A DNA stretch of 64,000 nt from Neomicrococcus aestuarii (lineage in GTDB: Bacteria; Actinomycetota; Actinomycetes; Actinomycetales; Micrococcaceae): positions 434,001 to 498,000 of the forward strand of contig NZ_JACHDR010000001.1 in NCBI RefSeq assembly GCF_014201135.1, given 5' to 3'. Within the stretch, counting starts at the first letter, position 1. Every line of letters begins with the position of its first letter. This document shows, piece by piece, positions 27,597-48,185 of this stretch. The position numbers and the translations under genes were made by a program. Under the pieces are notes generated by a model. It was not told the DNA's origin and did not search any database. It worked only from the letters and a program-made list of their open reading frames with translations.

Positions 27597-27670
27597 CGGG
27601 CTGTGGCGCAGCTTGGTAGCGCACCTGACTGGGGGTCAGGGGGTCGCAGGTTCAAATCCTGTCAGCCCGA
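27597..27670 (+). tRNA. tRNA-Pro(GGG), intact island copy
   Basis: The 74-base gene has acceptor stem CGGGCTG/CAGCCCG, D-arm GCGC/GCGC, anticodon stem CCTGA/TCAGG with loop CTGGGGG (anticodon GGG), T-arm GCAGG-TTCAAAT-CCTGT, and discriminator A. CCA is not encoded, unlike the native 3' half at 47481. It lies just inside the island and presumably replaces the split native gene. Confidence 0.95.
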
Positions 27671-27678
27671 CAGAGAAG

Positions 27679-27744: not shown

Positions 27745-27759
27745 CTGGGTTATAGGACA

Positions 27760-29217: not shown

Positions 29218-29365
29218 ATGTGTGTCTGGGTCGGGCGTGTCTTTTAGGAGGCGCGTCCGGCCCATCCTTTTCGGTGCCAGAGTCCTTCGTTTTCGTCCAG
29301 GCCGGTGTCGAGTTGAACCGTCCCAGGTTTGATGCCGTATCTTTTCGAGTTGAGAGGATGGCTTC

Positions 29366-30654: not shown

Positions 30655-30887
30655 CAGCGGCATTAAACCTGGGACAGTTCAAGTTCTTTGGGGCCGATGA
30701 TTTCGTGGGTTCGTGCGTGTTGTGGGGGTGGGTTGTAGTGCTCGGGTCGGATGAGTTGGTGTGGCGGTAAAGGGTTCTCGCTGTTCAGGTAGAGGAACCA
30801 TTCCACTGCTCGTTTGGCGTGTTCTGGCGGTAGTCCTTGAACCGTACTGGGTTTGGTAGACACTCATGATTGATTGGAGAATGAGTT

Positions 30888-31205
30888 ATGCCCAGTGGAG
30901 TGAAGTACGACACAGCGTTTCGGGAGCGCGCGGTCCGATTGTTGCAGGAACGGCGCTCGGAGTATCAGGAAGAGTCTCTTACGGCGTCGATTCGTCAGGT
31001 TGCTGGCGTGGTGGGGATGCCGTATGACACGTTGCGGACATGGAATCGACAATCAACTCCTGGTTTGGCAGGGGCTGTGAGTGTGGATTTGGCGAGCGAG
31101 AATCGTAGGTTGAAGCGCGAGCTCGCGGAAGCGAAGCGGGCGAACGAGATCTTGCGTTCGGCCGCGTCTTTTTTCGCGGCGGAGCTCGACCGCCCACGAG
31201 GTTGA
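30888..31205 (+). CDS. IS3-family OrfA of insertion sequence 3
   Basis: The 105-residue protein begins PSGVKYDTAFRERAVRLLQERR, carries a helix-turn-helix (IRQVAGVVGMPYDTLRTWNRQ) and a heptad-like C-terminus ENRRLKRELAEAKRANEIL. A ribosome site GGAGAATGAG precedes the ATG. It is intact although its OrfB partner is disrupted. Confidence 0.88.
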   Translation: MPSGVKYDTAFRERAVRLLQERRSEYQEESLTASIRQVAGVVGMPYDTLRTWNRQSTPGLAGAVSVDLASENRRLKRELAEAKRANEILRSAASFFAAELDRPRG

Positions 31206-31992
31206 TCGTGAAATTCATTGATCAGTTTCGGGACCGCTACGGGGTCAAGCCGATCTGCACGGTGCTCACGCGTCATGCGGGTGTGAAGATCGCCCCGAGC
31301 ACGTATTACGCTTTCAAATCCCGACCAATAAGCGCCAGAACACGACGTGATAGTGAGCTTGTGCCGGTCGTGAGGCAGCTGCATGAGCGTCATTACGGGG
31401 TGTATGGGATTGTAAAAATGTGGCATGCACTCAAGCGTGAAGGCCATGTTGTGGGACGTGATCACGTGGCACGGTTGATGCGACTGGCCGGTGTTCACGG
31501 GGTCGTTCGGGGCAAGAAGCCGGTGACCACGGTTTCCGATCGGAGCGCGCACCGGTTCCCTGATCTGGTCAAACGCGGGTGGGACGTCACGGATTTGAAC
31601 ACGGTATGGGTGGCTGATTTCACTTATGTGCGTGTCCCGTCAGGGTTTGTGTATGTCGCGTTCATTACCGATGTGGCCTCCCGCAGGATTCTGGGATGGA
31701 ACGTGGATACGTCTCGGCGTACCTCGTTGGTGACGAGTGCGTTGAATCATGCACTCATGGTTCGACGGCTTAGTGGGCAGCGTTTCAGCGTGAAAATGCT
31801 GATTCATCATTCAGACGCCGGCACTCAATACACGTCCTCGGAACTCAAAGATGCCTTGTCACATGCGGGTGTGCGGGGTTCTATCGGGACGGTGGGTGAC
31901 GCGTTGGATAACGCGTTGATGGAATCGGCGATCGGTTTGTATAAGACTGAACTCATTCACGCGATGAAGCGGAAAGTGTGGGGCTCTGTGCA

Positions 31993-33508: not shown

Positions 33509-33689
33509 CTCTGTGCAAGAAGTCGAAACCAGCACTGCGCAGTGGGTGCACTGGTTCAACACCCAGCGCATCCATTCAGGTATCGGGTATCAAACTCCCA
33601 CGGAATTCGAAACCAATTACCACCAACAAACCACGGCTGGAACCCTCAGTGCGTGAACACAAACTGTCTATCAAACCCAGTACGGTTCA

Positions 33690-33874
33690 CGGCCGGTATC
33701 TGGACGATCCAGTCGAGCATCTTCCCCGAAAACTCGGCGAGCTTGGCACTGCATGAAAAATGCGGCTTCCGCACGGTCGGGCGACGTGAGCGCATCGCTC
33801 GCATGAGCTACGGACCGTGGGCCGGCTGCTGGCGCGACACCATCCTTGTTGAACGCCGGGCAACAACCGAGTAG
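33690..33874 (+). pseudogene. C-terminal remnant of a GNAT acetyltransferase
   Basis: Directly after the insertion-sequence end the frame reads TAGIWTIQSSIFPENSASL then ALHEKCGFRTVGRRERIARM and WRDTILVERR, the last third of a GNAT enzyme (acetyl-CoA fold beta-bulge and NxxSxxLHEKxGF motif). It resembles phosphinothricin/Bar-like acetyltransferases. The N-terminal part is gone, so it is not functional. Confidence 0.7.
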
Positions 33875-33934
33875 CCGAGGTCAATCAAGTTTCGCCGTTG
33901 CGATATCGAACGATAGATCTATGAGGGGAGTGCT

Positions 33935-35569
33935 GTGGCAACGTATGAGGATTGGTACCGACAACTTCTCATTTGCTTTGAGCAAGCTGCGGATCGAGCT
34001 GTTGCTGCGCAGGAAGTCTTGACGGTCGCGGGGGAGATCGATAATTCTGATCTTGGAGTGCATGAGAAGTCTGCGCTCCGATTTGTGTGTTCGTCGCTGA
34101 TCATCAACGCGGGGGTCGACCTTGCCGACATCGCGCTTCTCGCTAAAGGCCGAGACCTCGCTATGAGCGCGCAGAGCGACACGACATCAGAGCAACCGCT
34201 GCACTTCCAATGCATATACAACGTCGCGAACGCAATCGTCAGCGTTTGCGACCTCGGATTGCCCACTGCGGGCAGTTGGGAGGATCGAGCGTCGGAACTC
34301 GTGGAGAATCGTCGGGCAAATCGGGTAGAGCTGCGGCAGGCGAGGCGCATGTTCCTTACCGTCGGATCAGCCACGAATGCAGACCCGCACACTCGGTCGG
34401 CTGCGTTCTGCAATCTGGCGAACAGTCTCGACTACTCCGGTCGATGGGCCGAGGCCTACGACTTCTACCTGCATGCACTCGAAGCCGACCCATCGAACGG
34501 TAACGCCGCAGGCAACTTGGCCCAACTGCTGATGAACCGTATCCAGTCGGGAGTTGGGCAGACCGGCCACATCGCCGCGGTCTATGACAAGTACGCGAAG
34601 ATGGCGCAATCCCTTCGCGACGGCACAATCAGCTTCGCAGGGGCCGACATAGCCGATAGATGGGACGGGCTCGAACCGACCGAAAGCCCGGGACACCTGG
34701 CACACGGGTTGGAAGACCCCGACGACGAGTACCGCAAGTGGGTCGCGGCATACCGGCTCGCCTTGTCACCGGCGGTCGAAGGACTCGGGACCGATGATGC
34801 GCACTGGGATAGCGCCGCGATCGAGATGCTCTTTGGCGGCTCCGTGGACGAAATGTCACCGCCGATTCTGGCGGAGATGAACGTCCTGAAATCCGACTTT
34901 CTTGTCTCCCGCCAACTTGCGTATGACGGTTATGTGCAAGTCGCCGAAGGTCCAGAACAGAAGTCGGACGATTCCGGCTACTACGTAGAGACGCTCGACT
35001 ATTCGCTCTACGGACTTCAGTACTCGAAACTGTTCCTCGCGCAACGATCCGCCCTCGACGTCCTCGACAAGACAGCCGTTGTCGCAAACGAGCACTTCGA
35101 CACGGGAGACGAAGCCAAAAGAATCTCATTCCGGAAGTTCTGGGCCGAAAAAGATGGCCAGGTTCGACCAGAGCTGGTGAAGAGTCCTCAGCGTTCTTTG
35201 CCCCCGTACGCGCTTTCTGAGCTTGCCTATGACATGGAAGGTGACGGCATGTACGGCCCGTCGCAGGCGTTACGCAATGCCGGAACCCATCGAATCGTGC
35301 ATGCCGCCTACTTGGAGGCAACTGGCGTGACGATTGATGCCCGCAGCCGGGTTGATCTCTTCGAACTGGTCGACTCCACGATCCTTGCTCTTCAAGTAAC
35401 ACGATCCGCGTACCTCTACCTCGTCGATCTGGTCGCGAGTTGGAATCACCCTGACGATCATCCCGGTACGTACGCTCCGTACCCCTCCTTCGAGTACATG
35501 CAACTTCCCGACGATCCAGATCAAAACTCGCCAACCGATGCGCAAGATTCCACTGAACCATCACCGTGA
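33935..35569 (+). CDS. TPR plus LA2681-like HEPN protein
   Basis: The 544-residue soluble protein starts at GTG 33935 with GAGGGGAG upstream. The N-terminal half is all-helical with a TPR-like repeat (AAFCNLANSLDYSGRWAEAYDFYLHALEADPSNGNAAGNLAQLL). The C-terminal third carries an LRNAGTHR segment, the R-x4-H motif of HEPN ribonucleases, in a setting that resembles LA2681-type HEPN domains. HEPN proteins of this sort are RNA-cutting toxins or abortive-infection effectors. It is alone, convergent with the CBASS operon. The acidic, Asp/Pro-rich tail looks disordered. The biological role is inferred from fold and from the defence context. Confidence 0.7.
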   Translation: MATYEDWYRQLLICFEQAADRAVAAQEVLTVAGEIDNSDLGVHEKSALRFVCSSLIINAGVDLADIALLAKGRDLAMSAQSDTTSEQPLHFQCIYNVANAIVSVCDLGLPTAGSWEDRASELVENRRANRVELRQARRMFLTVGSATNADPHTRSAAFCNLANSLDYSGRWAEAYDFYLHALEADPSNGNAAGNLAQLLMNRIQSGVGQTGHIAAVYDKYAKMAQSLRDGTISFAGADIADRWDGLEPTESPGHLAHGLEDPDDEYRKWVAAYRLALSPAVEGLGTDDAHWDSAAIEMLFGGSVDEMSPPILAEMNVLKSDFLVSRQLAYDGYVQVAEGPEQKSDDSGYYVETLDYSLYGLQYSKLFLAQRSALDVLDKTAVVANEHFDTGDEAKRISFRKFWAEKDGQVRPELVKSPQRSLPPYALSELAYDMEGDGMYGPSQALRNAGTHRIVHAAYLEATGVTIDARSRVDLFELVDSTILALQVTRSAYLYLVDLVASWNHPDDHPGTYAPYPSFEYMQLPDDPDQNSPTDAQDSTEPSP

Positions 35570-35642
35570 TCGACGTGGTAGTCGCTGTCAGCAGTTGACG
35601 ACGCCGCCTGCGCCAATCCTGCTGGGAGCCAAGCTTCAAGTA

Positions 35643-37433
35643 TCAAGACTCGCCCTGTCCTCCTCGAACGAGTACGTCCGTGATTGGTCCTCCGGCGGTG
35701 CCAGGTTCGAGGATCAGGGCCGGCGAATAGAGGGAATCACTCGTGTGGCTGTTCTCCCATTCGTAGACCACTGTGCGCAAGGTGTTGAGATAGCGCCCGA
35801 TCAGGATGGCCATCGGATAGGGGCCGTGGAATGCAAGATGCACCTCGGCACGTCCGTTGGTTGCGGCTAGTTGCTTTATCAGGCGCGCGATGGCAGCGCT
35901 GAGCCGTCCTGACTCTCTAGAATCGATCCGATCTGATCCGGTAATTGAGATCACGGCCGCTGTCGCGAACGGTTCGGTTGAATCATGCAAGAGTCGTTCA
36001 AACGCTGTCTCGTCGGGGGCGGGCGTCAGACTGATGAAGATCGCGGCACGATCTTGGACCTTCGGTGTTCGTGGCCCTGCAAGAGTGAGACGCCTGCTGT
36101 GGACTTGTGTGATCATCGGATCGTCTTCGGGGGTGACAGACGTCCAGATCTGATCGCGAGCATCGAGCACCTCGACGTTGCCGATCTTGGTTTCAGGGAG
36201 GGCTGCTCCGATAGCAAGGGCAACCGAGAGGTGTGCCCCGCCGGAGATCCGTGCAGTTTTCGCGCCAGAGGCGTACACGGCGTCTCCGGTAAGAGGAAGA
36301 GTCGTCTTGAGATTCTCGAGACCCTCGCCGGAGGGCAGGCGCCCGTTGTCGGACGACCTTATACGGATATGAAGGTCGTCTTCGTCGGCTTCGAGGGCAA
36401 ACGGTGTGGGGCGCGTCTGGACTCGGATGGTGAACGGCCGCCCCTCCTCTCGGATTTTAGGTCGTCGCTGCTCGACCCGGTGCATGAGTAGATCACGCAC
36501 GATTTCTACTTCACCGGTCGGAGCCAGCATGTTGCTCTGCTTCTTGTCTGCGAGCGTTCGCGCGGGTGAGAGCCGTAGGAGGCGGTCAGGTCCGCCGTAG
36601 TCGCACTTCGATCCGTCCCCAGCCCGAGGAATCGCATTTGCGATACACAGGCTGAATGCCGAATCGTTGTCGAGTTCGAGTAGGCGAGGCAACTCGCGTT
36701 CGCGAACGATTTCGCTGTAGACGATCTCCGGGGTCACGACGAGAACACCAGCGGAGAGTCCTTTGGTGAGGGCCTGTTCGAGCCGGTCGATAGTCGTCCC
36801 GGCTCGCAGATCGCTGTTATCTCTCCACACGACGAGCCCCGCGGCTCTCAGGAGGCCCTCGATAGATTCGGCATGGGGAGTTCCGTCTGACTGTCGGTAC
36901 GAGATGAAGACCGGGCCGTCTCCGCGCACGGCTCCATCGGGCAAGGGGCCTAAGGGTGTGAACCTCGACGATGGGAAGGAAACTTCCGCTCTGGTGCTGG
37001 TGATGCGACCCAACCGATGCCGTTGGGTGATCAGTCCGATGAACGGGTTTGTTCGGCCTGGTGCATAGACGAGCAGCGCTACTGGGTCAGCGATGCTTCT
37101 CGCGATTGCACGCATGGCGGCGACGTCCGTGGGACTTGGCCCCGAGGGGGTGGGATGGCTGTGCCATTCGCCGACGTACCCTGTCGGGTCGTCATCTGCT
37201 CGTCCGGCGAGGAATTCTTCAAGGAGCTCGTTCGCTCGGACGTCGTCTCGAACGTAGCGATTGGTGCCGGCCTGCCCGTCGATAGTCAGTGCGTGGGTAA
37301 CAACGATGTTGCGTCCCTCCCGGTAGCCGAGAAGGACCCCGCCTGTTTCGAGTGGAAGCTGCTCTGCACTCTTGGAGGCGATCGTCTCGTGAGCATCGTC
37401 GCTCAAATCGATGCGGGCAGGCGAGCGTGTCAC
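35643..37433 (-). CDS. JAB-TIR-SAVED fusion: Cap3-like peptidase joined to a CBASS NADase-type effector
   Basis: The 596-residue protein has three domains. Residues 1-150 form a JAB/JAMM peptidase with Glu30 (LETGG) and GEWHSHPTPSGPSPTD giving His91, His93 and Asp103. Residues about 172-255 form a TIR domain (VFISYRQSD; candidate catalytic Glu in YSEIVREREL). Residues about 330-590 form a SAVED domain with the typical late motif HLAFHGPYPMAILIGR and VVYEWE. In known type II CBASS, Cap3 removes the conjugate that Cap2 attaches, and TIR-SAVED proteins bind a cyclic oligonucleotide and destroy NAD. Here both activities sit in one chain. The start overlaps the cap2 stop by 4 bases. The His-x9-Asp spacing in the JAMM motif is one residue shorter than the usual x10. 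Confidence 0.88.
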   Translation of the reverse strand: MTRSPARIDLSDDAHETIASKSAEQLPLETGGVLLGYREGRNIVVTHALTIDGQAGTNRYVRDDVRANELLEEFLAGRADDDPTGYVGEWHSHPTPSGPSPTDVAAMRAIARSIADPVALLVYAPGRTNPFIGLITQRHRLGRITSTRAEVSFPSSRFTPLGPLPDGAVRGDGPVFISYRQSDGTPHAESIEGLLRAAGLVVWRDNSDLRAGTTIDRLEQALTKGLSAGVLVVTPEIVYSEIVRERELPRLLELDNDSAFSLCIANAIPRAGDGSKCDYGGPDRLLRLSPARTLADKKQSNMLAPTGEVEIVRDLLMHRVEQRRPKIREEGRPFTIRVQTRPTPFALEADEDDLHIRIRSSDNGRLPSGEGLENLKTTLPLTGDAVYASGAKTARISGGAHLSVALAIGAALPETKIGNVEVLDARDQIWTSVTPEDDPMITQVHSRRLTLAGPRTPKVQDRAAIFISLTPAPDETAFERLLHDSTEPFATAAVISITGSDRIDSRESGRLSAAIARLIKQLAATNGRAEVHLAFHGPYPMAILIGRYLNTLRTVVYEWENSHTSDSLYSPALILEPGTAGGPITDVLVRGGQGES

Positions 37434-38896
37434 AGTTCATCTCCTTGTGGGCTTGTTGCGATGGTTCGCACCTCTCCCGCCGGGTGGAGCGGGCTGTTTG
37501 TCAGTAGTCCGAGCGCGTGTCGTACTGTCACTGCAGCCGCTTCAATCACCGCGTACGGCGGAGTTGGCGAGATTGGGCTCCCGCATCCGGCTTCGAACAC
37601 TTCCGCTGTGGATCGTTCAGCATTGAGCGCCGAGGGCGGGTGAGGAGTGGCGCCGTCGAGTGGCGGCAACACGTCGATGCGGTAAGTGGCACCATCGTTC
37701 TGAAACGCGGCCGAGAGAACTCGTGCTCCAAGCGATTTGGCCGCGACATGGAGGAGTGCCGTCGTCGCGAAGTCAGCAGTCGCATTGACAACAAGGTCGT
37801 GATTCTGGAGAAGCTCGACGGCGGCGTCGCCGGAACTGATGTTGTCATCAATGACTTGGATGTCGGAACCTTGGATGTCGGCGCGAGCCACAAGGTGATC
37901 TTTTACTGCTTTGCCCTTTGTCAGCCCGACGGCTTCGGGGCCAACGAGATGGCGAACGAGGTTGCCCGGCATTACGACGTCTGTATCAACGAGGGTGAGA
38001 TGGCGGACACCGGATCGCACGAGCGTGTCTGCCACGAAGGAGCCCAGTGCTCCGACACCAACGATGGCGACACGGTGATCGCGGAGCGCGGGGGCCAGGA
38101 TGCCGGCTCGAGCTTCTCTGGCTGCGTTGGTATCTGCTCCTGAACGCAGGCGTCTGACGGCGATCCCGCCGGCGGTCGTCGGCCAGACGTCCAGAGCGAT
38201 CGCGCCGTCGTGAGCACCACGTCGATAGATGAGAACGAGGACTGCCACTGCGTGGTCGCGAATCCGGCGATCCAGATCCACTGCGGGATCGATCAGCGCT
38301 GAAATGTCTTCCCACGTTCGGGGAGGAGCGGCCACCTCGCCAAGGTCGGCAACGTATCCGAACCGGTCTTTGCTGTGCTTCGAGGCCTTCGCTGGTCGCG
38401 TGCCTGTTCCGATTCGCATGACGTCGTTCTTCGCGGGACGGAAACGCACAAAGCCGTTTCGGTGCTGGGCGAGATCGTCGTAGAGGTAGACACGAGCGTC
38501 CTCGGACGGGTCGAAGTACCGGTCGAGGTCGAGATCGGGACGATCGTCTGGCCAACCGGCGTCTGCTTGCTCGAACCAAGCGGTGATGTGCTCGACGAAC
38601 TCGCTGGCTTCGGTCCACCAGAGTCCGTCATGATCGTCCTCGGCGATCAGGCACAGTGAGCCGTTGAGTTCTCGGTGCCAGGACCAGGGCACAAGATCGA
38701 GCTCAGTGGGGACGACACGTGGCGGCTGGAACGGGAACCGCGATCGTAGCGTGATGAGCACTTCCGTAGCTCTGCCGGAGTGCGAGATGGGTCCCCGCCA
38801 TCCGGCGTCGCTTTCGGTGAAGCCGCCACGGATGAGACCTTCTTCAAAGTGTTGCCGCGAGTAGGCGACGTAGTCGTCGTACTCGGTCAGGCTCAC
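37430..38896 (-). CDS. cap2: Cap2: E2/E1 fusion of type II CBASS
   Basis: The 488-residue protein joins an N-terminal E2-like domain (residues 1-150, candidate catalytic Cys82 in NGSLCLIAEDD) to a C-terminal ThiF/E1 adenylation domain with the nucleotide site VGVGALGSFVADTLVRSG near 279-295, the acidic VDTDVV, and the candidate E1 cysteine Cys438 in EAGCGSP. In CBASS, Cap2 adenylates the C-terminus of the CD-NTase and conjugates it to a target, which primes cyclic nucleotide synthesis. Start and stop both overlap neighbours as ATGA, so the three genes are tightly coupled. Confidence 0.92.
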   Translation of the reverse strand: MSLTEYDDYVAYSRQHFEEGLIRGGFTESDAGWRGPISHSGRATEVLITLRSRFPFQPPRVVPTELDLVPWSWHRELNGSLCLIAEDDHDGLWWTEASEFVEHITAWFEQADAGWPDDRPDLDLDRYFDPSEDARVYLYDDLAQHRNGFVRFRPAKNDVMRIGTGTRPAKASKHSKDRFGYVADLGEVAAPPRTWEDISALIDPAVDLDRRIRDHAVAVLVLIYRRGAHDGAIALDVWPTTAGGIAVRRLRSGADTNAAREARAGILAPALRDHRVAIVGVGALGSFVADTLVRSGVRHLTLVDTDVVMPGNLVRHLVGPEAVGLTKGKAVKDHLVARADIQGSDIQVIDDNISSGDAAVELLQNHDLVVNATADFATTALLHVAAKSLGARVLSAAFQNDGATYRIDVLPPLDGATPHPPSALNAERSTAEVFEAGCGSPISPTPPYAVIEAAAVTVRHALGLLTNSPLHPAGEVRTIATSPQGDEL

Positions 38897-39900
38897 CCGA
38901 AAGTCCTTGTGCCGGCGGGCACCACCCGGGCGCCAGCAAGGATTGCGGACGCGCGCTTGCTGCCGTCTTCGTTGAAGCCGGGCGGCATCGGGAACACCGT
39001 CTTGTCGTCGCCGTTCTTGCCAAGGAGTTTTTGGAAGGCGAGCGCCGCCTTGCCCTCATCCTCCTGTGCCAGGGCATCATCTGCCGAGATGGCTGCATCC
39101 GCGAATCGAGTTCGCGCCGCTTCAAGTTCCTCGTCCGAGGCACGTATGTGAATCGTCGCACCAGCCAGGGTGGGGTCGTTCACGCCGATCCCGTATGTCA
39201 CGAAGTTCTCGAGGATCTTGCTTACCTTAGTGAGTGCTGACACATAGTATTCCGCTTGGTCACTCCCTGACACGGCGCCCGAGGCGAAGGCCTGGTAGGT
39301 CGCCAGTTCGAAGAAGAAGCCCCCGGGCTTCTTCTTGCCGAGTTGGGCCCGCCGGGTCTGACGGAGCAACTTGACCGTAGGCACGTAGTAGCCATCGTGA
39401 GCCGCGTTCATCTCGCTGGACAGTGAAGTAAGGCCCTCGGGGTTTGTGCGAACCCACTCGTTTTCGTCACCCTTCTGTGGGATCTCCCATGTCTCTCCGT
39501 CCCAATGGGGACGGGCCGGGACGGCGTCCACGTAAAGGTCGTACTCGGGGAAGGAGACCTGGAGGCTGCGGTCCTGACGCTTGGTGCGTCGGTGCCCGTC
39601 GGAGTCAGTGCCGAATTCCGCGTGCAACACGGCAAAGAACTTATCGAGGATGTCCTTCGATGTGACGTCGCTCGGCATGTCAGGGAGGCGCACGAATACG
39701 TCGACATCTTTGATGCGTTTGATCGACACGTTGCGCTTGTATGAACCGATTAACACGGGGGAGACGCCGTACTCGGTGAGCTTGGCGTCCGCCTCGAGGG
39801 CATCGCGGACCAGTCGATGCGCTTCTGGCGCGTTGGTCTTGTCATCGCTGGGCTCGATGGAACTCAGCGCATCTTTGAACTGCTGTTTGAGGTGAGCCAT
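38893..39900 (-). CDS. CD-NTase: CBASS cyclic oligonucleotide synthase
   Basis: The 335-residue enzyme is a cGAS/DncV-like nucleotidyltransferase. The catalytic loop GSYKRNVSIKRIKDVDVFV has Gly52-Ser53 and the metal-binding Asp65 and Asp67; a third Asp lies in YDLYVDAVPAR (Asp125). The helical C-terminal lobe follows. The protein ends in TRTFG, and a C-terminal Gly is what Cap2 needs for adenylation and thioester transfer. The product cannot be read from the sequence; a TIR-SAVED effector favours a cyclic trinucleotide, as reported for another actinobacterial TIR-SAVED system. It is the first core gene, with a small ORF 90 bases ahead. Confidence 0.92.
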   Translation of the reverse strand: MAHLKQQFKDALSSIEPSDDKTNAPEAHRLVRDALEADAKLTEYGVSPVLIGSYKRNVSIKRIKDVDVFVRLPDMPSDVTSKDILDKFFAVLHAEFGTDSDGHRRTKRQDRSLQVSFPEYDLYVDAVPARPHWDGETWEIPQKGDENEWVRTNPEGLTSLSSEMNAAHDGYYVPTVKLLRQTRRAQLGKKKPGGFFFELATYQAFASGAVSGSDQAEYYVSALTKVSKILENFVTYGIGVNDPTLAGATIHIRASDEELEAARTRFADAAISADDALAQEDEGKAALAFQKLLGKNGDDKTVFPMPPGFNEDGSKRASAILAGARVVPAGTRTFG

Positions 39901-39989
39901 CGGCTCCTCCGATTCGGGTTGTAGGGGGGTCGGGTGTTCCGAGTCTTCCTCACGCCACCGACAGCGTGAGGAAGACTCGGAACGTGGGT

Positions 39990-40109
39990 CTACTTCTTCT
40001 TGCCGCTCTTGCCAGTGCTCTCGTTGGTCGTCGTCTTGGGGTGACTCTTCACGGTTGACTGCTTCACAAAGCGCCCGGTGATGGCGCTACGCCCTCGCTT
40101 ACCCGCCAT
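39990..40109 (-). CDS. Small basic protein (39 aa) ahead of the CBASS core
   Basis: This short frame starts at ATG 40109 with AAGGGAGGTGAG eight bases upstream, a better ribosome site than most in this window. The product begins MAGKRGRSAITGRFV, has a STVKSHPKTTTNES stretch, and ends in a lysine run. The RSA-x-TGRFV...HPKTT pattern is familiar to me from short hypothetical proteins of actinobacteria, often in accessory regions; this is recall, not a search. It reads toward the CD-NTase and is likely in the same transcript. Its role is unknown. Confidence 0.7.
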   Translation of the reverse strand: MAGKRGRSAITGRFVKQSTVKSHPKTTTNESTGKSGKKK

Positions 40110-40144
40110 TGCTCTCACCTCCCTTGCGTTCCAAACTCGATTCC

Positions 40145-40162
40145 GTGTTTCAATTCTAACAC
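40145..40162. promoter_or_regulatory. Possible operator in the CBASS/CapH divergent promoter region
   Basis: The 18-base element GTGTTTCAATTCTAACAC has inverted ends GTGTT/AACAC around an A/T-rich middle. It lies between the divergent starts at 40109 and 40210, where a CapH-like repressor should bind. The arms are only five bases each. Confidence 0.4.
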
Positions 40163-40209
40163 AGTCGTGTCGAGAGTGACTCGGCGTTGTAGATGTGAGA
40201 CACTCAAGC

Positions 40210-40578
40210 ATGGCCAAAACAACGATCAACACGGCCGCGCTCTACTCGGCGCTCGATGCTGCCCGCCAGGAACGCCAGCTCTCGTGGCGAACGCTGGCGG
40301 GTGAGATTGGTGTGAGCCCGTCGCTGCTCTCAAGGCTCGGCAACGGACTGAAACCTGACACCGACGGGTTCGCGACGATCATTGCGTGGCTCAGGCTCCC
40401 TGCCGAGAGTTTCTTTGAGCGCGATGGCGAGAGCAATGCCGACGACGCGCGTGAACCGGATCTCATGGCGCAGCTCGCGCCCCTTCTCCGGGCCCGCAAG
40501 GATCTAAGCGAGACGGATATCAACTACCTCCAGCAAGTAATCGGTCTCACCGTTGAACGCGCTCGGGCGAAGGGATGA
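40210..40578 (+). CDS. CapH-like HTH repressor
   Basis: The 122-residue protein has an N-terminal XRE-type helix-turn-helix (LSWRTLAGEIGVSPSLLSRLGNG) and a short C-terminal helical part rich in Arg/Asp. It lies three bases before an ImmA/IrrE-type metallopeptidase gene and diverges from the CBASS operon. This is the pattern of CapH-CapP, where the peptidase cleaves the repressor after DNA damage and induces CBASS. ATG 40210 is chosen since the domain starts soon after; GTG 40195 is an alternative. Confidence 0.78.
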   Translation: MAKTTINTAALYSALDAARQERQLSWRTLAGEIGVSPSLLSRLGNGLKPDTDGFATIIAWLRLPAESFFERDGESNADDAREPDLMAQLAPLLRARKDLSETDINYLQQVIGLTVERARAKG

Positions 40579-40581
40579 TCT

Positions 40582-41133
40582 GTGCGTCGCGGATTCAAGA
40601 CCGAGGCGAAGCGCCTTGCACTGGAGCTTCGGACTGAAATAGGCCTCGGCGCGCACGCGCCCTTCGACCCGTATGCCTTCGCGTTGGAGTACGGAATCGC
40701 TGTCGTTCGACTCAGCGAACTCGACGGAGCAGCCCGCGAGCATTTCCTGAAAGAACAGGGGAGCGCGCTGTCAGGCGCGTTGATCCCAGACGGCACAGGA
40801 GCTGTGATTCTGGAGAACGATGCGCAACCGCTCACACGGAGGCGGACCACAATGTGTCACGAACTTGCACACGTTGTTCTTGAGCACTCATTTGGTGTCT
40901 CGCTGTCCGACGAACGGAAGTGCGGGCTCGGCGGCCAGCAGGAGGAGGAAGCCGACTGGCTCTCTGGCGAGATGCTCATTCCCCACGACGGCGCCTTCCG
41001 GCTGGCCCGAGCCAACGCCACAGATGAGCGTGCAGCTCAGGTGTTCGACGTGAGTCTTGCGGTTGCCCGCTGGCGAATGAACCACAGCGGAGCGCGCAAA
41101 GTCATGCAAAGGGCTCGTGCCAAATGGGCGTGA
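40582..41133 (+). CDS. CapP-like ImmA/IrrE zinc metallopeptidase
   Basis: The 183-residue protein has the zinc motif MCHELAHVVLEH (HExxH) near residue 94 and the downstream third-ligand region EEEADWLSGEMLIP. A Cys directly precedes the first His and another lies in RKCGLGG before the EEEADW segment. It would cleave the upstream CapH-like repressor to switch on the divergent CBASS operon. The start follows the capH-like stop by three bases. Confidence 0.82.
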   Translation: MRRGFKTEAKRLALELRTEIGLGAHAPFDPYAFALEYGIAVVRLSELDGAAREHFLKEQGSALSGALIPDGTGAVILENDAQPLTRRRTTMCHELAHVVLEHSFGVSLSDERKCGLGGQQEEEADWLSGEMLIPHDGAFRLARANATDERAAQVFDVSLAVARWRMNHSGARKVMQRARAKWA

Positions 41134-41140
41134 ACCACAC

Positions 41141-41953
41141 ATGACCAACTCGATCAGCGCCTTTCCCCTCGGGACTATTGAGGGTGTCGCCAAGATCGTC
41201 GGTGACCTTTACAGCGGCACCGAACTCACACGCATCATCGCCGAGGTGCCGCTTCGCTCTGACCCGGGCGAAGGACACACCAAATGGCGTCGACTCGCCC
41301 ACGCTGTCTCCAGCAACCAAGCAAAGATCGGTAATGGGAATGCGCTGGTAGCTCTCGTGCGGGCGGCAATGCGGCCGGAACGCACACTCGATCGCAAGTC
41401 CCGCGCAGACATCGCACGCGATGAACTCAATCAGGTGCTATCGCTGGTGAGCCTCAAAGTGCTCGCTGACGGACGAGTAGCGACGGCAAAGAGGGCGTCT
41501 ACTGACACTGAGGCGCTGGCTCGCTCTGAGCGGCTCTACAAGATTCTCGAACAACGCGGAGCACATGCTGAAGTGCTTGCGTACTGCCGCGAAGATCTCC
41601 TCCGCAAGGATTACTACGAAGTGGTCTTTGAGGCCATCAAGGGTCTGGGGGCACGAATTCGTTCTCAGACCGGTGTTGATGCCGATGGATACGGCCTCAT
41701 CGAGAAGTCGATGGCCGGCTCAAGCCCATTACTCCGGATCAACGAAGGGCTAACCCGAACCGAACGGGACGAGCAACTCGGCATAGCCAACCTCGCGAAA
41801 GGTCTGTTCAGCGCCTTCCGGAACCCCGTGGCTCACGAGCCCAAGCTGTACTGGACGATGAGCGAGCTGGACGCACTTGACGTTCTGGGAACGCTGTCCA
41901 TGATCCATCGTCGGCTGGACACAGCGACCTCACGGAACGGTGAGGGAACCTAA
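41141..41953 (+). CDS. Ymh/TIGR02391-like protein with HEPN-type RNPVAH motif
   Basis: The 270-residue soluble protein resembles the TIGR02391/Ymh group by recall of its C-terminal layout. It carries GLFSAFRNPVAHEPK, an R-x4-H motif as in HEPN ribonucleases, near residue 232. The N-terminal half is helical with no motif I recognise. It starts seven bases after the capP-like stop at ATG 41141 (a GTG at 41117 overlaps capP), so it is in the same operon as the regulators. A role as an extra toxin or a CBASS accessory is possible. Confidence 0.65.
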   Translation: MTNSISAFPLGTIEGVAKIVGDLYSGTELTRIIAEVPLRSDPGEGHTKWRRLAHAVSSNQAKIGNGNALVALVRAAMRPERTLDRKSRADIARDELNQVLSLVSLKVLADGRVATAKRASTDTEALARSERLYKILEQRGAHAEVLAYCREDLLRKDYYEVVFEAIKGLGARIRSQTGVDADGYGLIEKSMAGSSPLLRINEGLTRTERDEQLGIANLAKGLFSAFRNPVAHEPKLYWTMSELDALDVLGTLSMIHRRLDTATSRNGEGT

Positions 41954-41955
41954 GC

Positions 41956-42288
41956 ATTGCTGGAGCTATTTCAGTCGACCTAACAGCGCGGATCGCGAGC
42001 GCGGGTGCGTCGCTAGCTGTAGGTGGGGTTGTCGTTGCTGGGCTATCGATCAGTAGTCGATTCCCCGCCACCCGAGGCCTGACCACCCTCCTGTGGGATG
42101 CTCTGGACACCGACGTCGCCACGCGATCAAAGTTGGCCAGCGCACTCGGGCGTAACGATGCTGACGCAAAGTCGCTTGTGGGTGACGACTGGGCCGACGT
42201 GGAGCAAGCATGGGCGGCGGTCGCGGGTAGCCCAGCCTCGCGCTACAGGTTCCAAAATCAGTTCGCCAAGCTCGCAGCGTGCTGCAGG
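41956..42288 (+). pseudogene. Coding-like remnant without a standard start
   Basis: In frame 1 an open stretch runs from 41944, with a hydrophobic segment (SAGASLAVGGVVVAGLSI) then a plausible soluble part (DALDTDVATRSKLASALGR). No ATG, GTG or TTG occurs before TTG 42133; an ATT at 41956 follows GAGGGAAC at a good distance. Past about 42288 the frame overlaps the better minus-strand gene. It may be a small membrane protein with an unusual start, or a gene truncated at both ends. Confidence 0.3.
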
Positions 42289-42765
42289 CTAGGCCTGCGT
42301 TCGCGGATCGAAGCCAGCCGCAGTGCGCGGCACGAGAGTGGGCTCGATCGCCTCACCGAGTTGGTGGATGCGCCAGCTGCTGATTGGCACGACCGCGATC
42401 TCTGGGCGCCACACGAGTGTCACGTGCATTGTTGCGGGGACGGCGGCGATGTCATCGTTGAGATGCGCATCGGTTTCGACGAGGCGCACGTAGGCGACGT
42501 CCGGTGCCCCGATACCGAATAACGCTGTGGTGCTGATCTTGAGACCTGATGAGAAGACGGATCGAGCTCGGGAGAAGTCTTCCCAGGTGCCAAGCGATTC
42601 GGGAGTGACGAATGCGCCGCCTAACAGTTCTCCGGCATTCGCTTGTTCCATCTCGAGGCCGGTACGAAATACATCGACGAAGAGTGATGGATGCCAATCG
42701 GGGAGCGACTCGTAGGTCACCATCGCGTCGTCTTCTTCGGTCCAGTCAGTCGGTTCGTCGCTCAT
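42289..42765 (-). CDS. Hypothetical acidic protein (158 aa)
   Basis: The protein starts MSDEPTDWTEEDDAM and is acidic at the N-terminus. The middle contains MVTYESLPDWHPSLFVDVFRTGLEM and a predicted beta-rich end (MHVTLVWRPEIAVVPISSWRIHQLGEAIEP). I do not recognise a family. It reads the same way as the next gene on that strand (start at 45896) and may be its downstream partner, 68 bases after its stop. Confidence 0.6.
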   Translation of the reverse strand: MSDEPTDWTEEDDAMVTYESLPDWHPSLFVDVFRTGLEMEQANAGELLGGAFVTPESLGTWEDFSRARSVFSSGLKISTTALFGIGAPDVAYVRLVETDAHLNDDIAAVPATMHVTLVWRPEIAVVPISSWRIHQLGEAIEPTLVPRTAAGFDPRTQA

Positions 42766-42833
42766 CTGCCCATAGTGGCAGGGGGCGCCGACATGAGGGC
42801 GAGGCGGTCCTCGGTTGCGTCGGAGTGTCGGAT

Positions 42834-45800
42834 CTAGGGGGCCTCTGCGCCGCTAAGGGCCGTGCGGACGCTGTACGCGGGGTCGTCGGCCAAGACAGCG
42901 CGCACATCTGCATGATTCCGATTGGCTTGGTCCGTGAGTGCGCGTGCGAGTGCTCGACGGACGCGCGCGTCGGGGTCCCGCGCCAAGCGGATGCCGAGGT
43001 GTTCAGGTTCGCCGTGCTCAACCCACTTCAGCGCCACCAGACTCCGGATAGCCCATCCTTGCATCGAGAGAAACGCAAGGTCGTCTTTCACCGTGTCACC
43101 GAGACGTTGCAGCGCGATGGTCGGCCAGTAATCGGCCTTTTCGCCGAGTAGCGCGTAGACGACGCGTCGGACTTCTCTTCGCTGGTTATCGTTGCCTGCG
43201 AGGCTGGCGGCAAGCGCTAGCGCCTGCCCGCTACTTCCCTGGGGCATCCCGTTCATGCGGAAGCCGCCGAGCTTGTGGGTGTACTGGCCGTTGAGTTCGT
43301 CGTACTTCGACGGAGTGGGCGAGGTTGCGAGTCGCATGGCAGTCTCAAAATGACTTGAACGGTGGGCTTTATTGAGATGACGTGTGAGATTGCCTGCCGC
43401 GTTTAGATAGTCCGCGCGATCGCTCGAGCCAAGGTGCGGATCATCTGCGCGAATCAGTAGTTCGGTAACCGCGGTGTTGATTGAGTCTGAGGGCAGATGA
43501 CGGATGAGAAGTGAGTCGCCGATCGCATTCGTGCCGACGCTGTAGACGCCGGCGACGTGAGCAAGCGGTGTGGTGAGCCGCGCCAAAGCATCGGTCGCGA
43601 CGGCCGGATCGATGTCGGTCGGGTTGGCGAGTGCCAGCGTTTCCTGTGCCCAGTGGTTGCGTGCTGCGGCGAGTACGGTGAGTCCGTCGCGTGCGAGCGT
43701 CTCGTACTTGCTGATCGCATCGTGGGCAGTCTCACTTCGCGCGCCCTGCGCTCTGCCCAGAAGCGGCACAAGATGGGCGATGGCCCGTGGAGCGAGGTTC
43801 GGATGGCTGAGCGCGATTCTCGCCACAGCAAGCGCTTCATCGTCATCGTGGAACCGGTAGTGGTTTTCCTGCACCTCCGGTTGCCGCTCAAAGTGCTCCA
43901 ACGCGGCGGTCGCCGGTTCGAGAGCGATGCGGCCGGCAATACCCGCCAATGCTTTGATCGCGTTGTTATAACGCGAGGTGGCAAAGGAGCGCAGATCGGG
44001 TCGGGTACCTTCCTCGGCTGCTGCGAGCTCCGCAACGATATGCTCCGCGATGAAGTCCACGAGGGTGTCGGGCACGAGATCCGCCTGGGAAGCGATGAGG
44101 CGGTAGGTGGCGCCGACCGTCCAGTAGTTCGGCGCGTCCAGATTTTCCGTGATGTCAAGGAATTGAAGCGGCAGTGACTTGCCCAGTGAGTCGATCTGTT
44201 TTGTCGCACCGACCTGCGCGAGGTGATGAGCGGCGAGGGTAGGTTCGTCAGAATCGATCAGGATCGAGGCAAGCACGCGCCGCGCGCGTTCTTCTTCTAC
44301 CAAGTCGCTAGTCGCGACCGCATCGCGCAGCGCGCGCTGCGCGGAGATCGCCGCAGATCGCAGGGTGCCCTCGTTCAGTCCTGATAGCGCGTCGACGTAG
44401 GCGTCATGGGCCGTCGGCACGATTGGCCTTGAGGTGCCCATTTCCCGGACAGCGGTTTGCAGAGGGAGTAGCTCGTTGCTTGTGAACGGGTTCCAGCGTG
44501 AGCGGAAGGAACGCCTGCTGAAGATCCACGTCGATGCTTCGCCCCACTGCGAGGCAAGCGACGCAAAGCCGGAGGCCTCATCCCAGGCCAGGTCGGCTTC
44601 CTTGAACTTCTCGTATCGAGCGAGGCTGCGTGCGTGGCGAGCGGCGATGAGCCCGGAGACGCTATATCCGTGGGTGATCTTTCGAGCATCGGCAAGAAGC
44701 TCTGCCCAGTCCTGCGTCGACTCGGCGATGATCAGGCGAAGGCGCGTGCGTCGTATTTGATCGAGACCAGGAAGACGGGACAGCTCGGCCAGGGTGGGGA
44801 CGGCGCTGCTCAGCCAGTCGGAGCGGTCGTTAGCAATAGCTGTTTCGCCCGCAAGGAGCGCGAGGCGCACCTGGTCCTCGGGCTCCCCAAGCCGCAGCTC
44901 CTTGATGTCCGGAAGGTAGCCGAGCGGATTCATATAGAGGTTGATCGCGCTTTCGGTGACCTTGCGGCAGGCATCTACTGTTAGGGCAATCTCGGCCTGA
45001 GTTGTTAGCTCCGCGAGACGTGACTGCGTTATCTGGGCGGTTGTCGCGAGGCCTTGCTCGAGTGCCGACCAGAACTCATCGAGAGTGTGGCGTGCCGCCT
45101 CCTCGGCTCGTCCGTTGAGAGCCAAGAGGCGCACGCGCTCCTTGTCGTGAGACGCCGCATGAGGCTTGAACCCTGCATTTTGCAGGGCAGCCTGCCCCTT
45201 CTCGATGAGAGCAAGCGCCTGTTCGGGATCGGTCGTCTCAGCCGCCTTGTCGAAGAACTCCTGGGCGCCCGTGGAGACCTCTGGGGTGCGTGCGATTGCC
45301 TCGCGCACCCCGGCAGCATCGGCGGTGGGGACTTGGGTGACGTCGATCTTGAACTCGTGACAGAAGGCCTCGGCGGTGGGCATACCGAAGTACTCGATCA
45401 CGATCTCTGGCCGCTTTCGCAGGAGCGCCGAGAGTTCCTGCGCATCCCAAAGGTCGAGAACGATTGGGTGAAGCTCCTTGCGCTGAACAGCGAGTTCCTC
45501 GACTGCGCCGGTGCTCTTGACGGCGCATGCCACGCCTAGGATCAGGCGCTGAACCGTGAACGGCTGCTCCACATTGCGGAACTTCTTGATCGCGGCGGTG
45601 AGTTGAGATTTTCCGAACTGCTTGTAGTTCTTGCTCTGGAGAGCGACGCCCGCACCATCCGGCGCCAGTGCAACGATGTCGAGTCCGAGTTGGGCCTGCC
45701 CGCGGTCTCCGTAGAGCTGTGCTTCGCGAAGTCCTTCGACGTCTCGCATCATCCGTAGTTGAAGGCGCTCGAAGTTCTCCCAAGAAAGGGAGGTGAATGG

Positions 45801-45896
45801 AAGCTCCTCGAGCTTGCCGATCACCGGAGCCGGGGTGGTGACCGACGCCGGCGCGTAAAGCGATGAAGCCAGCGACAGAGGTTTCCAGTCAGCCAC
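42834..45896 (-). CDS. Mrr-like nuclease domain fused to a long helical-repeat region
   Basis: I start at GTG 45896, which has GGGAG nine bases upstream and begins just before conserved-looking sequence; the open frame continues to 46151 but that part is low-complexity Arg/Pro/Gly. The 1020-residue protein has an N-terminal restriction-endonuclease-like domain at about residues 25-140 (ENFERLQLRMMRDVEG, then LGLDIVALAPDGAGVALQSK, a D...QxK active site as in Mrr). The remaining 850 residues are almost wholly alpha-helical, suggesting TPR or HEAT repeats. It diverges from a SIR2 gene at 46161. A defence role with the SIR2 protein is inferred from the pairing. Confidence 0.7.
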   Translation of the reverse strand: MADWKPLSLASSLYAPASVTTPAPVIGKLEELPFTSLSWENFERLQLRMMRDVEGLREAQLYGDRGQAQLGLDIVALAPDGAGVALQSKNYKQFGKSQLTAAIKKFRNVEQPFTVQRLILGVACAVKSTGAVEELAVQRKELHPIVLDLWDAQELSALLRKRPEIVIEYFGMPTAEAFCHEFKIDVTQVPTADAAGVREAIARTPEVSTGAQEFFDKAAETTDPEQALALIEKGQAALQNAGFKPHAASHDKERVRLLALNGRAEEAARHTLDEFWSALEQGLATTAQITQSRLAELTTQAEIALTVDACRKVTESAINLYMNPLGYLPDIKELRLGEPEDQVRLALLAGETAIANDRSDWLSSAVPTLAELSRLPGLDQIRRTRLRLIIAESTQDWAELLADARKITHGYSVSGLIAARHARSLARYEKFKEADLAWDEASGFASLASQWGEASTWIFSRRSFRSRWNPFTSNELLPLQTAVREMGTSRPIVPTAHDAYVDALSGLNEGTLRSAAISAQRALRDAVATSDLVEEERARRVLASILIDSDEPTLAAHHLAQVGATKQIDSLGKSLPLQFLDITENLDAPNYWTVGATYRLIASQADLVPDTLVDFIAEHIVAELAAAEEGTRPDLRSFATSRYNNAIKALAGIAGRIALEPATAALEHFERQPEVQENHYRFHDDDEALAVARIALSHPNLAPRAIAHLVPLLGRAQGARSETAHDAISKYETLARDGLTVLAAARNHWAQETLALANPTDIDPAVATDALARLTTPLAHVAGVYSVGTNAIGDSLLIRHLPSDSINTAVTELLIRADDPHLGSSDRADYLNAAGNLTRHLNKAHRSSHFETAMRLATSPTPSKYDELNGQYTHKLGGFRMNGMPQGSSGQALALAASLAGNDNQRREVRRVVYALLGEKADYWPTIALQRLGDTVKDDLAFLSMQGWAIRSLVALKWVEHGEPEHLGIRLARDPDARVRRALARALTDQANRNHADVRAVLADDPAYSVRTALSGAEAP

Positions 45897-46160
45897 AAAA
45901 AACTCCCGCCTCGCCCAGCCCCGATCGCGCCCCTGAACTAGGGGACGAACCCGTCGACTCCATCCTACAGGGGCGCTAGAGCGCACTCCTGAACCAAGTC
46001 CCGACGCCAAACGTGGGGGACACCCCGTCACTGGCCCGCATCTCATGCGGCGAAAGAGCCGGCCTCCAGGGCCGATGCCATCCGCCCGGAGGCGTGGGCA
46101 CTTTTCGTGCCTGCCCCGCGTCGCTGGTGAGGGACGGGTCGCCGCTGCCATGCTGATATC

Positions 46161-47270
46161 GTGCAGACGAATCTCAATACGGCCCGTGAGTGGGTGGCGC
46201 AGGCGGGCGGCCGAGTCCTCTTTCTCTTGGGCGCGGGTGCTTCTAAACCTGCGCTTCCGGTCTCCGCTGAGCTCACTGACATCGTGCTCACGAGCATCGA
46301 TGAGGCGACAACCAACTTCGCCGCTGAATCGCGAGTCCCGGAGCTCTGGCGGGATATTCGTCCGGTGGTCTTATCGATGGGCTCAAACATCGAGGATCTC
46401 TATCAAGCCGTCGAGACGTTGACCTATCAGGACTCCGACCCAACGCGGTTCTGGGTGAACGGTTTCATGGAGTTCCCTACCTATGGCGGTGACACCGCAG
46501 CGCTGGCTCGAGACGCGCAGTGGATTCTCGACATGATCCAGGGGCATGCGCTTGGTGCGCTTGATGCTGCTCAGGCGAACGCTCCTCTCGACCACTTCGA
46601 GCCGCTGCTTCGTGCCGACAAGACTGGCATCGTCACGCTCAACTACGACCAGCTCATTGAGCGGGCTGGTGAGAGGTTCGGTGTCGAAGTCTCCGCAGGG
46701 GCCGAGCTGTGGGCTGGAGGCTTCCAGTGGCAATTCGAGACAGCAGCCGTGCCTCTCCTGAAGCTGCATGGCTCCATGACCTGGCGCGGCTCTCGATCCA
46801 CCAACCACGAAAGCGGGAACCTCGTCCCGGCTGTGGGCTTCTATGAAACGAATGGTCTCAACGAGGCGGCGCCGAATCGACTCCTGACCCCGACCGTGAT
46901 CTTCGGGTCGGGTTCGAAAACCACTCCCTTCTCGGCCTTCCCAGCGTTGACTCGTCAGTTCCACGACTGGCTTGAGGAATCAGAGCTGCTGGTCGTCGTC
47001 GGCTACTCCTTCCGCGATCAACATGTGGATGCGGCGATCCGCCGCTGGGCTTCGTTGTCACCGTCCCGTCGCATCGTCGTGATCGACCCTTACCCGCGTC
47101 GCCACATCGGCCAAGACGAGGACACACTTGGCGGATTGCTTTGGGCGATGGATGCGGAGTACCGGACGCCGGAGGCTCATGCTCCATCAGTGGCTTCCAC
47201 CTTCGGACAAAACCGGATCATCTTCCTGACTGGAGGCGTGGAGAGCCAGCTCCCGCTGCTGGTTGCTTAG
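46161..47270 (+). CDS. SIR2-family protein, putative anti-phage NADase
   Basis: The 369-residue protein has the SIR2 NAD-binding signature FLLGAGASKPALP at residues 21-33, then TLNYDQLIERAG, KLHGSMTWRGS with the catalytic-type His, and LLVVVGYSFRDQHVDAAIRRW. Bacterial SIR2 proteins of this group commonly destroy NAD during phage infection. The start is GTG 46161, which fits the motif position. It is divergent from the nuclease/repeat gene with 264 bases between, enough for a shared regulatory region. It is the last island gene before the right junction. Confidence 0.85.
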   Translation: MQTNLNTAREWVAQAGGRVLFLLGAGASKPALPVSAELTDIVLTSIDEATTNFAAESRVPELWRDIRPVVLSMGSNIEDLYQAVETLTYQDSDPTRFWVNGFMEFPTYGGDTAALARDAQWILDMIQGHALGALDAAQANAPLDHFEPLLRADKTGIVTLNYDQLIERAGERFGVEVSAGAELWAGGFQWQFETAAVPLLKLHGSMTWRGSRSTNHESGNLVPAVGFYETNGLNEAAPNRLLTPTVIFGSGSKTTPFSAFPALTRQFHDWLEESELLVVVGYSFRDQHVDAAIRRWASLSPSRRIVVIDPYPRRHIGQDEDTLGGLLWAMDAEYRTPEAHAPSVASTFGQNRIIFLTGGVESQLPLLVA

Positions 47271-47438
47271 CCGTTAAGCAACCCTCGGGCTGAGCCCTGA
47301 GCCCTGAGAGCTCGGCGGTCGAAAGCGGGGACCAAAAGGGGACCAGAATCATGCAAACCATGCATTGCATGACGTGTCCTGCATGATCTGATCCCCGGAA
47401 CTACGCGGTTCTTGGCCCGATTTGGGTCGTTTGGACGC
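47271..47438. other. Right-end non-coding region of the island
   Basis: No gene is seen. It has the 13-base inverted repeat at 47336-47348 (copy of 27732-27744 reversed), a nearby second GGGGACCA, and clustered ATGCA/TGCAT repeats at about 47350-47395 that could be recombinase binding sites. Confidence 0.5.
47336..47348. repeat. 13-base inverted repeat, right copy
   Basis: AAGGGGACCAGAA is the exact reverse complement of 27732-27744. GGGGACCA also occurs just before it, giving a short tandem. Confidence 0.45.
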
Positions 47439-47483
47439 CTGGGGGTCAAGAGGTCGTGGGTTCAAATCCCGCTAGCCCGACCA
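47439..47483 (+). pseudogene. 3' half of split native tRNA-Pro(GGG), right island junction
   Basis: After the shared CTGGGGGT the sequence gives the 3' anticodon stem TCAAG, variable loop, T-arm GTGGG-TTCAAAT-CCCGC, acceptor TAGCCCG, discriminator A and an encoded CCA. It pairs with the left half at 27506 rather than with the island tRNA, which differs at several compensating stem positions. Confidence 0.88.
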
Positions 47484-47700: not shown

Positions 47701-48030
47701 TCAGTCTGGTAACTGCTCATTTTGAGTTTCCCGAAGCCTCTTGAAGTTCTGTGAGGCGAATTTCAATCTGTCGAAATATCCTAAATCTCTGAGCATCGGA
47801 TGGTCTTTCCAAAGAAAACCCGGGGCGAGAAGAGCTCCGACCAAACCAGAAAGGCCAAACAGCGTGGACCCGTTTGAGTCTATTCCAGGGATTAGGCTGA
47901 CGTAATAGATACTGGCGAAGACTACGACCACACTGGCGATTAGCGGCACCACTCGAGTTCGTGGAATCAAGCTGCTTGGAAACAAGATTCCAACCGAAAG
48001 CCCTACTACCGCTAACAAGATGTAAGTCAT
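47701..48030 (-). CDS. Small membrane protein (109 aa), unknown function
   Basis: Starting at ATG 48030, the protein has three hydrophobic segments: YILLAVVGLSVGILF, VVPLIASVVVVFASIYYVSLI and LFGLSGLVGALLAPGFLW, then a charged C-terminus (RDLGYFDRLKFASQNFKRL). There is no family I recognise. It is alone on its strand. Confidence 0.6.
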   Translation of the reverse strand: MTYILLAVVGLSVGILFPSSLIPRTRVVPLIASVVVVFASIYYVSLIPGIDSNGSTLFGLSGLVGALLAPGFLWKDHPMLRDLGYFDRLKFASQNFKRLRETQNEQLPD

Positions 48031-48185
48031 ACTCGCCAATTTACTCTCTAGTCTTTAGAAACGGTCGCCATCTTTACAGGCGAAGGAAATTGGTGCGGGT
48101 ACATCTGCAATGAAGATGTACTGACCGTTTGTTCTCGCAATGGTTGTGTCCTGAGTCCGTGCTTGAGCGCTCGAGGGGTGAACGA

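Follow-up and report, generated by a model that had tools for sequence, protein, structure and literature searches.

A probably self-contained Mrr-type nuclease and repeat protein beside a probably optional SIR2 gene at the end of an actinobacterial defence island

Two adjacent genes of Neomicrococcus aestuarii, transcribed away from each other at the end of a defence island, raise the question of whether they form one defence system or are merely neighbours. They lie in the window analysed here, the whole stretch of 64,000 nucleotides from positions 434,001 to 498,000 of contig NZ_JACHDR010000001.1 (assembly GCF_014201135.1). The first gene runs on the minus strand from a GTG start at 45896 to 42834 and encodes a 1020-residue protein with an Mrr-type nuclease domain and a HEAT/TPR-like repeat region; the second, on the plus strand (46161-47270), encodes a SIR2_2 protein of 369 residues (E=2.1e-13) that is probably optional. 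An earlier note on this DNA had proposed the two as a new defence pair. Probably the two genes do not form a unit; the interesting part is the nuclease family, an uncharacterised family of actinobacterial defence islands that is free of a nucleoside triphosphatase (NTPase) domain. On balance we favour the explanation that the window gene encodes a self-contained actinobacterial Mrr-nuclease and repeat defence protein without an NTPase, with SIR2 as a separate, optional NADase.

Both genes are real and arranged as the earlier note described, facing away from each other across a 264-bp divergent intergenic region (45897..46160) in which a simple scan detected no sigma-70-like promoter. A longer open reading frame (ORF) of the nuclease gene, 1105 residues from 46151, was rejected as the real start: the in-frame stretch upstream of the GTG was judged non-coding because its codon-position GC is unlike that of the nuclease gene and because stops interrupt the homologous frame in three of five close relatives. 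An ATG occupies the place of the window's GTG 45896 in two of five close relatives. The nuclease gene, the SIR2 gene, and a gene for a 158-residue protein downstream of the nuclease gene are all under purifying selection, with ratios of nonsynonymous to synonymous substitution (dN/dS) of 0.11 to 0.17, 0.20 to 0.21, and 0.06 to 0.11, respectively. The window was compared with three relatives at 93% identity (with two in the case of SIR2); near-identical sequence pairs yield unstable values, for example, 1.0 on four changes for SIR2 between the window and L048.

The N-terminal nuclease domain comprises residues 26-190 (45327..45821, minus strand) and carries an E43-D73-Q87xK89 motif that is conserved in the family, which bears out the QxK-type nuclease of 1020 residues proposed before. 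In an 18-row family alignment, E43, D73, and Q87 are identical in all 17 rows covering the domain, and Mrr_cat is matched by 3 of 12 nuclease-family members (Pfam, E<=0.01). For the window protein, NCBIfam and PHROGs gave zero matches, and PADLOC gave a single weak match, Aga_TIR-PNTD1-PNTD2 (residues 33-169, 1.3e-5), which is common to 4 of the 12 family members. Repeat matches among these 12 are weak (HEAT_2 in two, TPR_7 in one, HEAT in one), and a PDB sequence search with the nuclease-family profile returned a designed TPR chain alone (5.7e-4). Together with a low-confidence, mostly helical model, the weak repeat matches suggest that the repeat region is likely all-helical; of the earlier description, a nuclease plus an all-helical repeat region, the nuclease motif stands and the helical part is likely. 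The family shares the E-D-QxK motif with Mrr-type restriction endonucleases, and a few of its members match Mrr_cat, but the window protein falls below Mrr_cat detection and carries its nuclease at the N terminus of a 1020-residue repeat protein. Mrr-like domains and HEAT/TPR repeats occur in other conflict systems as component parts, according to PMC7159879.

What sets the family apart is the missing middle. No Walker A pattern was seen in any of 12 members, and Pfam assigned no NTPase family to any of these 12. In Avs and bNACHT proteins, an effector is followed by a STAND or NACHT NTPase and then by a repeat sensor. The window family resembles Avs (AVAST)/bNACHT proteins in its N-terminal nuclease domain, which belongs to the same sequence group, its long C-terminal region of probable repeat type, and its defence-island setting, but it lacks the central NTPase. 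A tblastn search of plasmids with the window nuclease protein matched 23 records. Among H1-H11, which belong to the family, the 9 of 11 that were fetched have roughly the full gene length; H4 and H10, not fetched, were judged by their scores to be near-duplicates of H3 and H9. The records beyond H1-H11 match over the nuclease domain only (H13-H23 were not fetched). Six of the 23 records are annotated as NACHT domain-containing, and these proteins are ~28-32% identical to the window protein over residues 24-178; in Deinococcus (H12, L022), the nuclease has a gene of its own, followed by a NACHT gene. The L033 protein, from another genome of the family, combines HTH, Mrr_cat (3.1e-6), a STAND-like NTPase region (nSTAND_NTPase5 and AAA_16, both just under the Pfam cut-offs), and HEAT_2 (0.0013) in one chain; it shares Mrr_cat and HEAT_2 with the window family, whereas the window protein has neither its HTH nor its NTPase region. 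Judged from sequence, the window protein resembles a NACHT/STAND protein that has kept its nuclease and repeats but not the switch domain. Papers related to Avs/bNACHT are PMC12931631 and PMC12169576.

In the mechanism that we propose, a PD-(D/E)xK Mrr-type nuclease leads straight into an extended HEAT/TPR-like repeat region, with no STAND/AAA NTPase in between. The repeat region would recognise invading DNA or a signal of infection; its binding would release or assemble the N-terminal DNase, which would cut phage or cellular DNA, with an anti-phage effect. SIR2 would be a further NADase of the same tRNA-Pro island, transcribed on its own, independent of the nuclease protein and dispensable for keeping the nuclease gene. 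A self-sufficient nuclease protein would show that the nuclease and the repeats of Avs/bNACHT-like proteins can do without the NTPase switch, and would make the role of that switch testable by comparing both layouts.

Whether SIR2 accompanies the nuclease was examined in 19 nuclease-family loci (the window; L002-L004; nine plasmid loci, L013-L021; and G617, G918, G695, G772, G909, and G928), with SIR2_2 searched in the whole genome or record of each. A window-type SIR2 gene stands head-to-head with the nuclease gene in just 4 of the 19 (the window, G918, L002 from genome G639, and L003 from genome G640), and these four all fall within one clade of six loci with ~93% identity or more. G909 encodes another SIR2 protein (PADLOC PDC-S65, 6.9e-203), separated from the start of the nuclease gene by 2.1 kb that include an AlbA_2 gene. 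The other 14 loci have no SIR2_2 nearby; in three of these (the L015 and L021 records and G617), SIR2_2 occurs more than 100 kb off. Even in the close clade, SIR2 is absent from two of the six loci. G695, whose nuclease is 99% identical and which groups with the window and G918 with full support in the tree, lacks window positions 46053-47299 as a clean gap with both flanks kept, and no SIR2_2 is present anywhere in its genome. In L004 (Pseudactinotalea suaedae, 93%), the homology breaks off at 46141, shortly ahead of the SIR2 gene, and the genome has no SIR2_2 match at E<=0.01. Because G695 and L004 lack it, SIR2 was lost at least once in the clade while the nuclease gene remained intact. No other defence gene lies between SIR2 and the right repeat of the island, and this edge position may explain its easy loss. 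The window and G918, compared with G695, offer a natural experiment on adjacent-gene cooperation, SIR2 being present or absent beside a near-identical nuclease; adjacency at an island edge alone does not make a system.

The reverse survey gives a similar picture. SIR2_2 is common in the order (48 of 248 genomes), and none of 30 SIR2_2 loci from it has an Mrr-like ORF, by blastp or motif, within a flank of ~1.5 kb on each side of the match, beyond which distant partners would be missed. Head-to-head Mrr/SIR2 as a general rule was rejected on this count. Relatives of the window SIR2 protein were found in 14 of 295 Microbacterium genomes, 3 of which are clade members; the other 11 have no nuclease-family match. 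The neighbourhood survey, which the earlier note had named as a test of its pair, goes mostly against the pair. Among 11 SIR2 neighbourhoods that were read (8 of the 11 non-clade Microbacterium genomes plus L030, L035, and L036), 2 show SIR2 head-to-head with an Mrr-like gene of another kind, in a Curtobacterium plasmid (L036:7182-9638) and in Microbacterium G889 (L074:3386-7127). The former matches Mrr_cat at 2e-15; the motif of the latter was seen by eye, with no Pfam match at E<=0.01; and neither protein matches the nuclease profile of the window family at E<=0.1. These loci share the divergent layout with the window, but their nucleases (251 and 591 residues) lie outside the window family and their SIR2 proteins are longer (545 and 515 residues). 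A weak recurrent Mrr-like/SIR2 head-to-head theme, separate from the window family, is possible.

In this clade, the two proteins could still constitute a true two-component system, in which the repeat protein senses infection, its nuclease acts first, and SIR2 provides a second arm by depleting NAD, perhaps stepping in if the nuclease is blocked. Its layout recurs in four of six clade members, G909 has its other SIR2 protein near the nuclease start, and L036 and L074 repeat the arrangement with another Mrr-like gene; set against this are the two clade members without SIR2, the absence of the head-to-head layout from 13 of 13 other family loci, the 30 SIR2_2 loci of the order without an Mrr-like ORF in their flanks, and the position of the L036 and L074 Mrr-like proteins outside the family profile, that of L074 being also without a Pfam match. 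We regard a two-component system as unlikely.

The self-contained reading has points against it as well. Synonymous divergence (dS) between the window and L002/L003 is similar for SIR2 and the nuclease gene (0.27 and 0.30), so the two genes appear to have been co-inherited, and this co-inheritance, together with the purifying selection on SIR2 in the clade (dN/dS ~0.2), also fits cooperation. In the nuclease motif, position 89 is K in 13 of 17 rows and R in 4 of 17 (Streptomyces rochei, S. globisporus, Rhodococcus qingshengii, and G617). The window protein has no Pfam nuclease match even at E<=1, yielding insignificant matches only, and its AlphaFold2 model, built from an input alignment of four sequences (the window and L002-L004), is unusable (mean predicted local distance difference test score [pLDDT] of 42.5 and predicted template modelling score [pTM] of 0.31), the low-confidence structure being mostly helix. 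Finally, a conflict-type gene lies within ~5 kb of the nuclease gene in 10 of 14 lineages (the clade of six counted as one), a figure to be read as a tendency only, with neighbour genes picked by eye in four batches of 10 and no base rate.

These neighbours differ from lineage to lineage. The window clade has a type II cyclic oligonucleotide-based antiphage signalling system (CBASS) at 35643..39900 on the minus strand, consisting of a TIR-SAVED-JAB effector, an E1-E2 protein, and a CD-NTase (Pfam, PADLOC), and CBASS genes are present in all five clade loci that extend far enough to show them; the contig of L004 ends in the M78 gene. Rhodococcus ZPP (L015:1384-5235, plasmid pRZP3) carries a CBASS at 2.5 kb from a nuclease homologue that is only distantly related (~25% identical), and its cyclase and E1-E2 protein have the same top PADLOC models as those of the window (PDLC00810, PDLC00844). 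The nuclease/repeat protein might on these grounds serve the type II CBASS next to it as an accessory, for instance, as a back-up effector or an E1-E2 target; however, the effectors differ (TIR-SAVED in the window clade, NucC in Rhodococcus ZPP), the genes share no operon, and these two are the only ones of the 14 lineages in which CBASS was seen among the neighbours read, the others adjoining unrelated systems, which makes a CBASS accessory improbable. On Gordonia KTR9 plasmid pGKT2 (L013:1747-11057), HmaB and HmaC lie directly upstream of the nuclease homologue with a 22-bp gap, an arrangement that suggests an Hma system supplemented by a further nuclease. PMC12839542 treats HmaA/B/C as DUF499-centred BREX-related systems, near which PD-(D/E)XK nucleases are frequent as auxiliary or back-up effectors, and the Gordonia locus fits this description. 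Elsewhere, the nuclease gene has PbeC and PDC-S39 (G772), SIR2/AlbA_2 (G909), a PifA-like KAP NTPase (G928), NACHT without a PADLOC match (R. qingshengii), an LmuA-like gene (Rhodococcus JS3073), an OLD/GajA-like gene (S. globisporus), or a weak HEPN-like match (R. opacus) near it, and an SLFN-type helicase ~5.5 kb away in S. rochei. The single neighbour tested in R. aetherivorans gave no match; near G617, one integrase gene was tested, and Embleya was left out of the scan.

The window's own genome holds a single copy of the nuclease gene; 7 of 245 genomes match in the family sample, with a fragment in G114 (73%, residues 2-71) and nuclease-only matches besides the own copy; 2 of 396 match in the phylum sample (the own genome and G617); and 10 of 295 match in the Microbacterium sample, the genus of M. 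aerolatum, 7 of them over nuclease and repeats. For the tree, the G909 nuclease, split over two frames, entered as its C-terminal ORF alone, Embleya (L016), split over two ORFs, was left out, and L017 is cut by the record end. No relative was found in phages (E<=0.01) or viral contigs, and distant members sit on large plasmids; with tRNA-Pro repeats flanking the island, the genes could be plain cargo of a mobile island, neighbours by accretion, with the nuclease serving competition between plasmid or element DNA rather than anti-phage defence. The plasmid bias arises partly from plasmids being the collection searched by tblastn, however, and the neighbours are mostly defence genes, so we give plain cargo the least credence of the alternatives. 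A bolder version of the self-contained reading, quite unlikely in our estimate, would make the family an NTPase-free relative of bacterial NLR-like proteins, in which the repeat sensor gates the Mrr nuclease directly within a single chain; it would be a portable module across CBASS, Hma, Pbe, and NACHT islands, to which one clade added a head-to-head SIR2 as a fail-safe arm for when the nuclease is disarmed.

The SIR2 protein itself retains intact motifs, GAGAS at residue 24, NYD at 161, and LHGS at 202. Its best PADLOC matches are the Aga_SIR2 and SIR2 models, its NCBIfam SIR2_antiphage score of 37 is far below the 500-bit cut-off, and a PDB sequence search returned two weak SIR2 chains (0.013, 0.079). 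A SIR2-type domain with these motifs is shared with SIR2-HerA, DSR1/2, Thoeris ThsA, and the SIR2-prokaryotic Argonaute (SIR2-pAgo) systems, but the window SIR2 is a stand-alone protein, and the nuclease protein encoded opposite it is neither a HerA ATPase nor an Argonaute nor a TIR protein. Unlike in SIR2-HerA, no HerA is next to it: one neighbour is the nuclease protein, without an NTPase match, and on the other side, the next ORF of at least 70 residues listed encodes 112 residues (47701-48039). Unlike DSR1/DSR2, the 369-residue protein lacks a long C-terminal extension, and unlike in Thoeris, no ThsA model is among its 22 PADLOC matches (E<=0.1) and no TIR gene is adjacent, the only TIR found being inside the CBASS effector. 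For SIR2-Argonaute systems (SPARSA and relatives), no Argonaute match was obtained among the nine window proteins scanned, which are not every ORF. The nuclease protein differs from Shedu in having no SduA-type match, PADLOC giving Aga_TIR-PNTD1-PNTD2 alone. None of the searches made matched the locus to a named system, in agreement with the earlier note, and we recognised no paper describing this nuclease/SIR2 pair or architecture in a search without most subscription papers and all of bioRxiv. A second SIR2_2 gene is found elsewhere in the window's own genome (L105, G000:C1:1877042-1877428).

The 158-residue protein, acidic with an isoelectric point of 4.30, is encoded on the minus strand at 42289..42765, 68 bp downstream of the nuclease gene, with which it may be co-transcribed. 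It has zero matches in Pfam, NCBIfam, PADLOC, and PHROGs, and its AlphaFold2 model is unusable (pLDDT of 45.5, pTM of 0.40). Within the clade, this possible third member of the earlier note is linked to the nuclease gene in six of six loci, but its relatives elsewhere occur without the nuclease, and it is no constant partner. By blastp, it is found in 0 of 13 non-clade nuclease-family loci, no plasmid relative was detected at E<=0.1, and 4 of 129 Microbacterium genomes contain relatives of 32-43% identity and no nuclease-family match; a role as dedicated partner everywhere was rejected on the basis of the non-clade loci and these relatives. Two relatives adjoin tape-measure-like genes (L113:5000-5482, L115:7384-7845; labels by reading), hinting at prophage cargo.

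The island at whose end the pair was placed is confirmed by its borders and content. Repeats of the 3' part of tRNA-Pro bound 27597-47481, with the type II CBASS inside: the left copy (27629..27671, plus strand) lies within the tRNA-Pro gene (27597-27671), and the right-end copy, a putative attachment site (47439..47481, plus strand), is identical to it at 36 of 43 positions. Equivalent tRNA-Pro repeats end the element in L002, L003, L048, and L049, L002 also having a copy at the other end. Between CBASS and the 158-residue gene lie an XRE-like ORF (label by reading) with an M78 peptidase (CapP-like) gene (40195..41133, plus strand; Peptidase_M78 3.1e-13, capP 2.6e-14) and a PD-Lambda-3_B-like gene (41117-41953, 7e-65), which is kept in the window, G918, and G695, is absent in L002 and L003, and leaves a similarity of 43 residues in L004. 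In G695, the E1-E2 ORF (L049:2910-4241) matches residues 46-488 alone of the window protein, which may mean a damaged CBASS or another start. Towards its left end, the island holds transposase-like ORFs (labels by reading), which fill 27798-33443, and a HEPN_LA2681 and TPR protein (33935-35569, 3.6e-35) that is possibly the product of another defence gene.

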